Positions 168 to 3,999 of a stretch of 51,134 bases of DNA are shown one piece after another; within the stretch, counting starts at the first letter, position 1, and every line of letters starts with the position of its first letter. This DNA comes from Hyphomonadaceae bacterium (GTDB taxonomy: Bacteria > Pseudomonadota > Alphaproteobacteria > Caulobacterales > Aquidulcibacteraceae). The stretch covers positions 1 through 51,134 of the forward strand of contig JALHOC010000013.1 in the NCBI GenBank assembly GCA_022843225.1. The letters run 5' to 3'. The notes under the pieces are model-generated. The model was not told where the DNA came from. It searched no databases and was given only the letters and a program-made list of their open reading frames with translations. The translations under genes and the position numbers were made by a program.

Positions 168-1544
168 ATGCTCTCTGTCCTCGATCTTTTTCGCATCGGC
201 ATTGGACCGTCGAGTTCGCACACGGTCGGACCCATCCGGATCGCCAAGCGGTTTACCGACGGCCTCGCGCGCGCGGGAACACTTGGCGGCGCGGAGCGTA
301 TTGTCGTCGAATTGCAGGGGTCTCTGGCGCTGACAGGTGCAGGCCACGCGACGCCAAAGGCCGTCATCCTCGGTCTCGCCGGCTTCGACCCCGAAACCCT
401 CGACCCAGCCGAAGCGGATGCGCATGTCGGGCGCGTTGAAAGCGAACACAAGCTCGTCCTACGCGATGGGCGTACGATCGGCTTCAATCCAAAGGCCGAC
501 ATCGCGTTCGCCTACGATGTTATGCCGGCGCTGCATCCGAACGGCATGATCTTGCGCGCCTTCAATGGGGCCGGCGTCGAGATCGCGAGCGAGGAATATT
601 ATTCCACCGGCGGCGGTTTCATCGCCTCGCGCAAACAGCTTGAGACTCCGCTCAAGGACGATCTCGTTCCGACGCGCGCGCGAGTCCCCCACCCGTTCGG
701 ATCGGCTGCCGACCTATTGGCGGCCTGCGCGGGCCATAACCTCAGCGTCGAAGACGTGATCGCCGCCAACGAAGATTCCATGCGCCCGCGCGCCGAATGG
801 CAAGCTAAGCTGGATCGCATCGCGGGCGTGATGCTGGCGTGCATCGAGCGCGGCCTGAACCGCGACGGCATCCTACCTGGCGGCCTCAAAGTACAGCGAC
901 GCGCGCCCGATCTCTGGCGCAAGATGCGCGCAACGCCGTCGGCCAACGAACCCGAGCGTTTGTTCGATTGGCTCAATGTCTACGCCATGGCTGTGAACGA
1001 GGAGAACGCCGCTGGCGGCCAGGTGGTGACCGCGCCCACCAATGGCGCCGCGGGCATCATCCCCTCGGTTATGCGCCATTATTGCGCCGGCGAGGACGTC
1101 GCCCCAGCCAAGATGCGCACCTTCTTGCTTACCGCCGGCGGCGTAGGCCTCTTGTACAAGCAACGCGCTTCCATTTCAGGCGCCGAGATGGGCTGCCAGG
1201 GCGAGGTTGGCGTCGCCTGCTCGATGGCCGCGGCCGGGCTTGCAGCGGTGTGGGGCGCGAGCCCGCAACAAGTGGCCAACGCCGCCGAGATCGGCATGGA
1301 GCACAATCTCGGCCTCACCTGCGATCCCGTCGGCGGGCTGGTGCAAATCCCCTGCATCGAGCGCAACGCCATCGGCGCGGTGAAGGCGGTCAACGCCGCG
1401 CGGCTGGCGCTCGGCACGACCGGCGCGACGAAGGTCTCACTCGATCAAGTGATCGAGACCATGCGTCAAACCGGCCTCGACATGTCGTCGAAGTACAAGG
1501 AAACGAGCCAAGGCGGCTTGGCGGTGAATGTGGTTGAGTGCTGA
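168..1544 (+). CDS. sdaA: L-serine ammonia-lyase, Fe-S dependent, single chain
   Basis: Deaminates L-serine to pyruvate and ammonia in the cytosol, using a [4Fe-4S] cluster. The protein has 458 residues, the usual length for the fused alpha/beta form. The start is placed at the ATG giving [19 protein letters not shown], the conserved beginning of the family, with GAGAGA about 7 bases upstream; an in-frame ATG at 72 would add 32 low-complexity residues and is unlikely. Cys343, Cys351, Cys385 and Cys396 lie in the conserved [13 protein letters not shown] and LTCDPVGG...PCIERN segments and are candidate cluster ligands. The C-terminus ([16 protein letters not shown]) is the family signature. Oddity: the last ~105 bases are repeated 2.45 kb downstream, so this gene end may have been rebuilt by an insertion. 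Confidence 0.95.
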
Positions 1545-1545
1545 C
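1440..1545 (+). repeat. Direct repeat copy 1 (functional 3' end of sdaA)
   Basis: This 106-base segment covers the last ~34 codons and stop of sdaA. It matches 3894-3999 at a constant offset of 2454 bases with three mismatches (G1443/C3897, C1459/T3913, T1483/G3937). Similarity stops abruptly right after the stop codon. Copy 1 encodes the conserved methionine of [12 protein letters not shown], so the sdaA reading frame is intact here. The arrangement resembles attL/attR flanks of an element integrated into a gene's 3' end, but no integrase is visible. Confidence 0.9.
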
Positions 1546-1649
1546 ATCAAAATGTCACGGAGGTTTCGCCTATCGTTTTTCACGAATCCGCTTTTCGCTC
1601 CATTGGCGCGATGTTAACCACTGCATCGTGACGGTTGCGGGGGCTCACC

Positions 1650-2861
1650 GTGGAGCAAACAGCTCAGGGGCTGGTTGACATTATTTCGGAGCAGGGCGTC
1701 TTCCTCGGGGCTGGCGCTTCACTGCTCTTTTTCTTCTTGCAAGTATATCTCGACGTAGGTCGCGTCGAGGCGAGAGGCTGGGCAGACAATCTCAAGTCCG
1801 CCGCACTGCTTCTCGGCGCATTAGTCACTATGATCTTCGCCTTTTATTCGCTGCACTCCGAGTACGAACGCAACACTTATGCTGGAGCGGCTGAGAGCGT
1901 TATCGTTCCCTATTACAGAAATTGCGTTGAGCGCGTGTCCGAGTTCGCGCCTGAAGTGAAGAACGAAATCGTGCGAGCGAGGCTGGCGCGCGCCAATCCG
2001 CTGGCCGCCGACGAGAACACGTCCTCTCTTCTGCAGCTCGAATGCCTTGCTCTCGCGGTTCAGCGCGCGCCACCCGGAGAGGACCAAACCACCCAGGTCG
2101 GTTGGCTTATGCAAGACGTCGGCCTGGGCGATCGTCTGCTTCGCACTGACCCGAATGACCCGACATCGATCTCGGCGACGTTGTACGAGATGTTTGGGAT
2201 CAATACCGACAAATACTTAGGCATCGGCAGATCGCTGGAGATATCGGGCGACACACCGGACCCGCGATACCACGAGGCAACGCTTAGTGAGTACTGGGTC
2301 GCCAACGATTGCGCGATCGGGATCGAGGGCGGCGCTTGTGCTGAGCGGGCCTACAATGTCTGGGGTTGGCGGTTCTCTAGTTTCGAGGCGCTTGAGAACC
2401 AGACTGTTCGTCAATTGTTGACCGCCGTCCCACCAGAACAGGGAGAGAATACGCCCGAGTTTCAGCAACTTCGGACGCGACTTCAGAAGGGAGAGAATCT
2501 CAACTCGACGACGCCCGCCCTCGTGCGCTTCCATTTGTTCCCGCAGAACTATTATGTAGGCACGGTCGGGCGTCCGGAGGCGCTTGAGGTTTTCTTCCTA
2601 AGTTTACAAGACACAGCTGACCTTTCCGTGCGGGAGGCGTTTCTTCGGTCCGGCGCTGATGACCCGCTCCAACTGCGCCGCCGTGACACGCCTGACAACC
2701 GCGCATTCATTTGGGTCTACGTCCCCACGACGCCGAGCGAATATCGGCTAGCGACTTGGCGAAACTTGTTCGCCTATTTGCGCGGCATGCGGGTTGACGA
2801 ACGCGTTCGGGAGGTTGCGGACCGCCCCACCTGGGAGCGGTTTTTCCAACGCCGGAGTTGA
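1650..2861 (+). CDS. Two-helix membrane protein of unknown function (paralog A)
   Basis: I do not recognise the family. With the GTG start at 1650 (GGGGG six bases upstream) it has 403 residues; a TTG at 1635 would add five. Two hydrophobic segments lie at about 17-34 and 50-68, followed by a ~335-residue hydrophilic domain. That domain shares landmarks in order with the next gene: four cysteines, [46 protein letters not shown] and LATWRNLFAYL. Paired helices with a Cys-containing domain after the second helix would allow an extracytoplasmic position only if that domain faces out, which I cannot settle. It lies 38 bases upstream of paralog B, so the two are probably co-transcribed. No catalytic motif is evident. 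Confidence 0.75.
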   Translation: MEQTAQGLVDIISEQGVFLGAGASLLFFFLQVYLDVGRVEARGWADNLKSAALLLGALVTMIFAFYSLHSEYERNTYAGAAESVIVPYYRNCVERVSEFAPEVKNEIVRARLARANPLAADENTSSLLQLECLALAVQRAPPGEDQTTQVGWLMQDVGLGDRLLRTDPNDPTSISATLYEMFGINTDKYLGIGRSLEISGDTPDPRYHEATLSEYWVANDCAIGIEGGACAERAYNVWGWRFSSFEALENQTVRQLLTAVPPEQGENTPEFQQLRTRLQKGENLNSTTPALVRFHLFPQNYYVGTVGRPEALEVFFLSLQDTADLSVREAFLRSGADDPLQLRRRDTPDNRAFIWVYVPTTPSEYRLATWRNLFAYLRGMRVDERVREVADRPTWERFFQRRS

Positions 2862-2899
2862 GGCTTGCAAAGATGTGCTTCGATGTTCACTGAAGGCCA

Positions 2900-3883
2900 A
2901 TGACACTTTCCGTGGAAGCAGCTCTGCTGATCTTGCTGTTTTTGTTGCTGCTTACAACTTCAGTGGTGGCGATAAGTTGGCGCGACGCCCTTAAGCGACG
3001 CGGCGTGTATATCGCACTCGCCGCGTCGGGCGTGGTCATCGCCGTATCCTCGCTGGTGTTCGAAAGCCAATCGTCTCGCAGCACGGCGACCGCCCCCTGG
3101 GCGCCGTGGACGGCACGCATGACAGATCGTGTGGAGAGTTGCACCGAGCAGCGCGATCCGACAGCTTGCTTGGCCGCCGCGTTGCGCGCCGAGCCCCCGC
3201 CTCACGCCGTGGACGGAGAAACAGGGTTGGCATCGTCGCAACTCCTCCATGAGTTTCAAATGGGACAAGCGCTTCTGCAAAGCCCACGCATCAGCGACCT
3301 ACTTTGGGAAGAGTTCGGCATAGACCGCGAGGATTTTCTCGGCATTGGCTTGTCCATCAACAATCGGAGCGAGGATTCTCACACCAGGGAGCGTGAGTAC
3401 TTCGTGTCCAACCTTTGCGCGGACAAAATCAATCTGGATCGCTGCCCAACCGAGGAGCCAAACATCTGGACGTGGCGCCTCCCCAGCGCGGCAGCGCGCG
3501 TACAGCTTGGGCGCCCGCTGCTTGAATTAATCGATGGCCAACCTCCACTCGACAATGTTGAGCAATGGCGGACCCTGCGGACAAATGAGCTCGCGCCGAC
3601 GGGACTTTACATCAGAATCGCCCACTTTCCGGGCCAATTCTACGCAGGCACAGTTGGTCGGCCCGAGGCCAAACTGGTCTTTTTTACGGAGTTTCCCGAA
3701 AGATCGACAACTTTGCGCGACTTTATGGCTCAGACTGGCAGCGAGTCTTTGGCGGAAACAATCAACGAGAACGAAACGCTTTTCATCTGGGTTTATGCGC
3801 CAACAGAGACGCAAGAGCCGATGCTCGCAACATGGGGCTCATTGTTCGACTATCTGCACGCTAGCAGCGGCATCGACCGGTAG
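2900..3883 (+). CDS. Two-helix membrane protein of unknown function (paralog B)
   Basis: 327 residues, start ATG. Hydrophobic segments lie at about 7-25 and 36-54, followed by a ~270-residue domain homologous to paralog A. Shared landmarks are [15 protein letters not shown] (A: FGINTDKYLGIGRSL), NIWTWRL (A: NVWGWRF), [23 protein letters not shown] and [11 protein letters not shown]. Four cysteines (Cys81, Cys90 and the pair in [14 protein letters not shown]) correspond in order to four in paralog A, which suggests conserved disulfides or metal binding. It is shorter than A mainly between the helices and the first shared block. The stop is only 10 bases before the displaced sdaA end. Function unknown; presumably works with A as a pair. 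Confidence 0.78.
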
Positions 3884-3893
3884 ACCCTTTCCG

Positions 3894-3999
3894 CTCCATC
3901 AAGTGATCGAGATCATGCGTCAAACCGGCCTCGACAGGTCGTCGAAGTACAAGGAAACGAGCCAAGGCGGCTTGGCGGTGAATGTGGTTGAGTGCTGAC
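3894..3999 (+). pseudogene. Displaced, decaying copy of the sdaA 3' end
   Basis: Second copy of the sdaA end, including the stop codon at 3996-3998. It has no start and no 5' part of sdaA attached. One mismatch changes the conserved methionine to arginine ([12 protein letters not shown]), as expected if the copy is no longer selected. The stop sits three bases before the convergent stop of the VirD4-like gene, which suggests that this is the original genomic end of sdaA and that copy 1 came in with the inserted DNA; the reverse order cannot be excluded. Confidence 0.85.

Follow-up and report, generated by a model that had tools for sequence, protein, structure and literature searches.

We analysed a 51,134-nt stretch of the draft genome of a Hyphomonadaceae bacterium (GCA_022843225.1, here G000; 2.86 Mb in 117 contigs, the present one being C13) in which the 3′ end of sdaA, the gene for L-serine dehydratase, occurs twice, on either side of two genes of no recognized family that we call X1 and X2. 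The whole stretch is referred to as the window, and coordinates given without a contig label are positions in it. The sdaA gene (168..1544, + strand) is intact: its product matches Pfam families PF03315 and PF03313, 12 relatives align over 458 aa and, although the frame is open from 72, their alignments begin at 168. A 106-bp segment comprising the last 34 sdaA codons, the TGA stop codon (1542-1544) and one further nucleotide (1440-1545) recurs on the same strand at 3894-3999, the copies differing only at 1443, 1459 and 1483, and similarity is gone past 1545. The intervening 2348 bp (1546..3893) hold only X1 (1650..2861, +) and X2 (2900..3883, +), neither of which matches an integrase or transposase family. 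The right-hand copy begins 10 nt past the X2 stop codon and finishes 2 nt short of the stop codon of a VirD4/TraG-like ATPase gene on the opposite strand.

The repeat was recovered by a repeat finder (as a 109-nt pair, 96% identical) and by blastn within the window (E 1.9e-45), the longest exact match between the copies being 62 nt. No third copy was found in the 2.86 Mb assembly (query 1400-1548; 28 matches at E<=10, the third-best at E 0.2), and no 5′ part of sdaA lies alongside the second copy. For comparison we used a genus set of 30 genomes (G000 included), a family set of 60 that contains those 30, and an order set of 398. The gene sdaA is present in 13 genomes of the genus set, and a DNA search with its end matched 11 of the 30, the end being double in G000 only and single in the other 10; in two genomes that carry sdaA and went unmatched in this search (G012 and G016), no second same-strand copy was found within the fetched locus. 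All three differences between the copies are non-synonymous and all lie in the distal copy, where they change Asp to His, Thr to Ile and Met to Arg at positions that hold D, T and M in 12 of the 12 genus relatives carrying sdaA; the distal copy is therefore read as a relic. Synonymous differences between the copies number zero, in a stretch in which the nearest relatives differ at roughly 10-15% of bases, and, judged from these comparisons, the relic derives from the lineage's own gene or from a very close one. It seems to be drifting without selection, on the thin statistics of only three changes. The sequence-only reading of the window had pointed out the duplicated sdaA end around two paralogous genes, the Met-to-Arg change at a conserved position and the missing 5′ part, all of which we recovered together with the two further substitutions; the second end was not found to belong to a separate duplicated sdaA gene, the outcome that would have overturned that reading. 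The insertion behind sdaA looks real.

X1 (403 aa, with a GTG start picked through alignment with the relative described below) and X2 (327 aa) are distant paralogues with about 34% identity over 255 aa and the same layout, namely two hydrophobic N-terminal segments, predicted to lie in the membrane, with a charged loop between them, followed by a C-terminal domain. Each has four cysteines, three of which are invariant in a four-protein alignment of the X1 and X2 sequences of G000 and of a second genome, G021, the fourth having been matched by eye. The positive-inside rule would put the C-terminal domains in the periplasm, and the two proteins probably carry a cysteine-containing periplasmic domain. 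Neither protein has a Pfam match above cut-off or a PADLOC match, and by these searches the cargo at sdaA is not recognisable as a restriction-modification system; a search against sequences of solved structures gave one chance-level match only (E 3.1), and the AlphaFold models are poor (mean pLDDT 53 for X2 and 58 for X1) and unfit for a fold search. The G+C content of the pair, 58% against a genome mean of 63% (SD 2.4, 1.2 kb windows), is in line with acquired DNA. Searching the genus set with X2 returned one other carrier, G021 (two of 30 genomes with G000); no further carrier was found among the 60 family genomes with X2, nor among the 398 order genomes with the four-protein alignment (two of 398), and relatives of X1 and X2 were not found in viral contigs, in plasmids (X2 query only) or in genome_contigs beyond the G021 record. 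We infer that X1-X2 is a horizontally spread two-gene envelope module, anchored in the membrane.

The second carrier places the pair behind a different gene. In G021 (JALHQO010000005.1, a Hyphomonadaceae metagenome-assembled genome (MAG)), X1 and X2 lie in the same order and on the same strand between groEL and nhaA, and are followed by a second copy of the last groEL codons with the untranslated stretch and the terminator. This right-hand copy scores 73 against at most 50 in 3776 control windows, the native site (72) excepted. The G021 pair went unreported in the repeat scan of fetched loci described below, its copies differing by gaps, and rests on alignment and profile comparisons. The left copy matches the groEL ends of G007 and G005 at 57 of 60 positions, and the right copy is closest to the native end of another species, G022, at 55 of 62 positions versus 47 of 62 for the genome's own end; on this evidence the cassette may have come with a foreign groEL end, or the right copy may be of an older resident type. 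In the sister genome G007 (87% complete), whose groEL is 99.8% identical to that of G021, other DNA stands behind groEL, and no X2 match was found in that incomplete assembly.

The interval between groEL and nhaA is a variable slot throughout the genomes compared: 20 of the 21 fetched regions have nhaA behind groEL (the 21st stops short of nhaA), at a spacing of 0.2 to 7.2 kb, the 0.2 kb gap being that of G029. Applied to these 21 slots, a profile built from 15 native groEL ends identified a convincing second end in two, G021 (38.7 bits) and G014 (30.9 bits). The G014 slot contains a PemK/MazF-like toxin gene, then BglII-like endonuclease and MT-A70 methylase genes, then the groEL-end copy, so that, by sequence comparison, a restriction-modification pair bears the same scar there. 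That restriction and toxin genes share the groEL slot makes a conflict role for X1-X2 thinkable and no more; that the pair is perhaps a conflict or phage-exclusion module is a guess. Three further candidates in the slot were left uncounted: a second copy in G001 that amounts to a hairpin only and scores equally well on the other strand, one in G022 at 16.5 bits, and a third relic seen by eye in G014 past the PemK stop codon (L115, about 1240-1270). Separately, in several genomes (loci L105, L108, L109, L113, L119 and L121) the groEL stop codon is separated from the terminator by palindrome-rich insertions of some 50 to 70 nt.

A scar of the same anatomy was found at another gene of G000 itself. 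On contig C19 (30745-34579, L188), an aldo/keto reductase gene is followed by a TonB receptor gene in the same orientation and then by a 433-nt copy of the reductase end, 99.3% identical to the original, with the match going two bases past the stop codon. Over the 429 nt compared there are three differences, all synonymous and all within the last five codons, the other 138 codons showing none. Because the silent changes are confined to the tail, they point to two origins of the tail, donor and native, and hardly to mutation after copying. The reductase gene is present in G027, G029 and G008 at 81-83% identity, with different DNA behind it.

The sdaA and reductase pairs are the only ones counted as scars among 11 pairs that a scan for spaced direct repeats returned from 1.98 Mb of G000 (44 of the 117 contigs, several of them partly). 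A 119-nt pair on C19 (1-119 and 5728-5846, L187; 98% identical) has TonB and PepSY genes between its copies and was left uncounted; its first copy is cut by the contig end, and its second extends to the start codon of an MFS gene. A pair around a type I restriction system on C6 (37864-37959 and 48033-48128; L157, L158), at first sight a further scar, was dropped as part of an intergenic dispersed repeat family of about 98 nt, with matches in 23 of the 30 genomes and no Rfam match at the gathering threshold. Read individually, the C20 pair consists of the ends of two small paralogous genes with terminators, the C1 pair of paralogous lipoyl-type domains, and the pairs on C4, C23 (three) and C3 of coding or internally repeated sequence. 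A second scan, of 478 kb of fetched genus loci plus the window, gave eight direct pairs (sdaA, G014 groEL, L036, L108, L109, L112, L121 and L102) and two inverted pairs (L036 and L108). The direct pairs of L108, L109, L112 and L121 are probably one duplicated gene, judged from their like spacing, and the L036 pair (8953-9056 and 11944-12050) is a dispersed palindromic element of about 105 nt; this element has relatives in other genus loci and on G000 contigs C10, C18 and C30. The L102 pair lies in the groEL slot of G007 (8311-8545 and 8923-9152), is about 230 nt long and 83% identical, and encloses a 109-aa frame.

The VirD4/TraG-like ATPase gene to the right of the sdaA insert (4002..5384, - strand; PF02534) belongs to the genus core, with matches at E below 1e-100 in 28 of the 30 genomes, its own included, and its other neighbour in relatives is mostly a POT transporter gene. 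The sequence-only reading had proposed looking in relatives for a clean empty site joining sdaA to this gene; sdaA was absent from the relatives' VirD4-like loci (L040-L068, 1.5 kb on each side, less at contig ends). In the 12 sdaA loci of relatives, no window frame of at least 120 aa outside sdaA was matched at E<=1e-20, save one partial match in G027 to a frame near window 30 kb. DNA comparison of these loci showed two groups, of 3 and 8 genomes, each with a common upstream side, and a downstream side of five kinds with no detected mutual similarity; the shared upstream and divergent downstream DNA mark the sdaA end as a border to variable DNA. Elsewhere in the window, a 624-nt stretch (10984-11597 versus 20423-21036) is repeated in inverted orientation at 68% identity, perhaps as paralogous genes.

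An intact gene, a cargo and a copy of the gene's 3′ end thus follow one another in four places: sdaA and the reductase gene in G000, and groEL in G021 and in G014. We consider it moderately probable that cargo DNA carrying a homologous gene end was integrated by homologous recombination within that end, thereby duplicating it. X1-X2 would have arrived on a fragment, downstream of or joined to an sdaA 3′ end, and this end would have recombined with the resident sdaA in a RecA-type homologous reaction, most simply by a single crossover of the circularised fragment, or else with one end crossing over and the other being end-joined. The product would be additive, consisting of an intact gene with the donor tail, the cargo, a second gene end and the native downstream DNA. 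That homology gives out at the stop codon would follow from donor and recipient having the gene in common but not the DNA beyond it. We infer the participation of RecA, the circularisation and the related donor. Under such a process the boundary should fall at the stop codon, related cargo should turn up at different targets, and a single target should receive unrelated cargo; it also predicts a preference for 3′ ends, since an event at a 5′ end would separate the gene from its promoter. Copies that are mosaics of donor and recipient are seen in the reductase pair and suggested in G021, and the sdaA pair gives no such signal.

Several observations weigh against integration through a homologous gene end. 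No donor of the sdaA end is known, and no donor signature can be seen in the sdaA pair, given its zero synonymous differences. An uninserted sdaA-virD4 junction was not found in the relatives' loci examined. The reductase copies share 418 identical bases, more than would be expected with a donor of another species, which needs a near-identical donor, a one-ended integration or later gene conversion. The right groEL copy of G021 adjoins the nhaA side in a way that resembles the short site of G029, as an older resident relic might. The second L102 copy extends into the 5′ portion of another frame, a possible 5′-type scar, so that scars of this sort are perhaps not confined to 3′ ends. Lastly, X1-X2 stands at two loci with the scar, and could have a mobility of its own.

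The rival that fares best is an insertion with long target duplication, in which a transposition-like process would have copied the target, here the sdaA end, itself; we regard it as rather unlikely. It would account for two sdaA copies that both have the lineage's sequence, without a synonymous difference where the nearest relatives are 85-90% identical, and for an sdaA end that is single in every other matched genome, and one cargo with the scar in this genus, that of G014, is a restriction-modification pair, as in the concept developed for Helicobacter pylori in passages of PMC1643837 and PMC3031569. A newly copied target would, nevertheless, show neither the differing tails of the reductase pair nor a right-hand copy that departs from the resident type, as in G021.

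The sequence-only reading had also suggested an element that inserts at the 3′ end of a coding gene and rebuilds that end, perhaps a cargo-only or satellite element or a remnant. Of this proposal, the insertion leaving two gene ends looks right, supported by the presence of X1-X2 behind a different gene in G021. The part that invoked a 3′-end-targeting integrative element is not supported: a site-specific integrative or satellite element served by an integrase acting in trans from elsewhere is, we judge, very unlikely. Direct repeats holding the target gene end are present at sdaA as in 3′-end islands, the repeat ends at the stop codon and the gene is left intact, and a genome-wide search for PF00589 alone among recombinase families gave seven matches, six of them over cut-off and on other contigs. 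Yet none of the seven lies on C13, and no integrase was found in the insert itself, X1 and X2 having no Pfam match above cut-off. The related inserts lie in differing targets, the coding end of sdaA in one case and the groEL end plus terminator in the other. These two ends match locally somewhat above shuffled sequence, the score of 22 being weak against a shuffled mean of 14.9 (SD 2.4; 5 of 300 shuffles as high), and the cassettes of G000 and G021 show no likeness in their left non-coding ends, 272 of 300 shuffles reaching the observed score. At 106 and 433 nt, the repeats are, moreover, long for an attachment core. The different targets and the same scar with other cargo point to a general outcome of recombination and not to one satellite, and the label of integrative element is weakly supported for X1-X2.

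A tandem duplication of the sdaA end together with X1-X2, from which the second X1-X2 was later lost, yields the same final order, but the deletion must then end exactly at the sdaA stop codon, the history must repeat itself with unrelated cargo at groEL and at the reductase gene, and no two-cassette genome was found among the 30 genus genomes searched, so that we find this history very unlikely as well. An assembly artefact or mispaired repeat flanks, for instance an empty sdaA-virD4 chromosome and a separate X1-X2 circle, might be entertained for a draft of 117 contigs in which the copies match exactly over at most 62 nt and the contig starts just upstream of sdaA, but two diverged copies must both exist and the same layout appears in other assemblies (G021 and G014), and we judge it very unlikely too.

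To the extent that sequence can show it, the observation is real; it is also mostly explained, as a further case of a known kind of insertion scar. What is new here is the cargo family, together with its appearance at two separate loci, with no claim as to published genes like X1-X2. If integration through a homologous gene end is correct, a small and mysterious-looking island is in part the readable scar of ordinary recombination, scars of this form (intact gene, cargo, end relic) can be counted in any genome to find recent gene modules, and comparing the two tails tells donor from native sequence. In the present genus it has brought to light an unnamed gene pair that entered two loci. A bolder extension, which we think improbable, would make X1-X2 the earliest example of a class of two-gene cassettes that lack an integrase, carry a copy of a gene end from their last host and use it as a portable homology arm into the same gene of the next, stacking behind groEL and other genes with restriction-modification and toxin genes, and the pair would be a new membrane-anchored conflict module.

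The findings can be set beside four known systems. Genomic islands at gene 3′ ends combine a tyrosine integrase with an insert at the gene end and direct repeats; the insert at a gene end and the direct repeats are the likeness, the difference being that no integrase was found and that two targets are used here. In passages of PMC5361080, homology-facilitated illegitimate recombination is proposed for stacked immunity-gene arrays of Vibrio, which share with our loci a conserved upstream anchor, the addition of a module and displaced remnants behind it; there an effector gene or domain is displaced, whereas here the anchor gene is intact and a short duplicate of its end remains. Insertion with long target duplication, described for restriction-modification genes of Helicobacter pylori (Nobusato et al. 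2000, as cited in passages of PMC1643837 and PMC3031569), comes closest in anatomy among published labels, with cargo between long direct copies of the target and, in G014, restriction-modification cargo; our cases differ in the unfamiliar pair that forms the cargo, in that all four counted cases have as target the 3′ end of an upstream gene that stays intact, and in copies that seem to carry different source signatures in two of them. Passages of a report on non-replicative plasmid DNA in Escherichia coli (PMC3240628) describe duplication of the homologous end in 56 of 60 analysed clones, 14 of which were sequenced and gave duplications of 109-950 bp, credited by its authors to a single crossover of circular molecules. 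According to the same passages, homology-facilitated illegitimate recombination generally yields deletions, for which reason we prefer a single crossover here. The integrated DNA was laboratory plasmid in that work and natural DNA of unspecified form in ours, but the two share an additive product and a duplicated gene end, over 109-950 bp there and 106 and 433 bp here.

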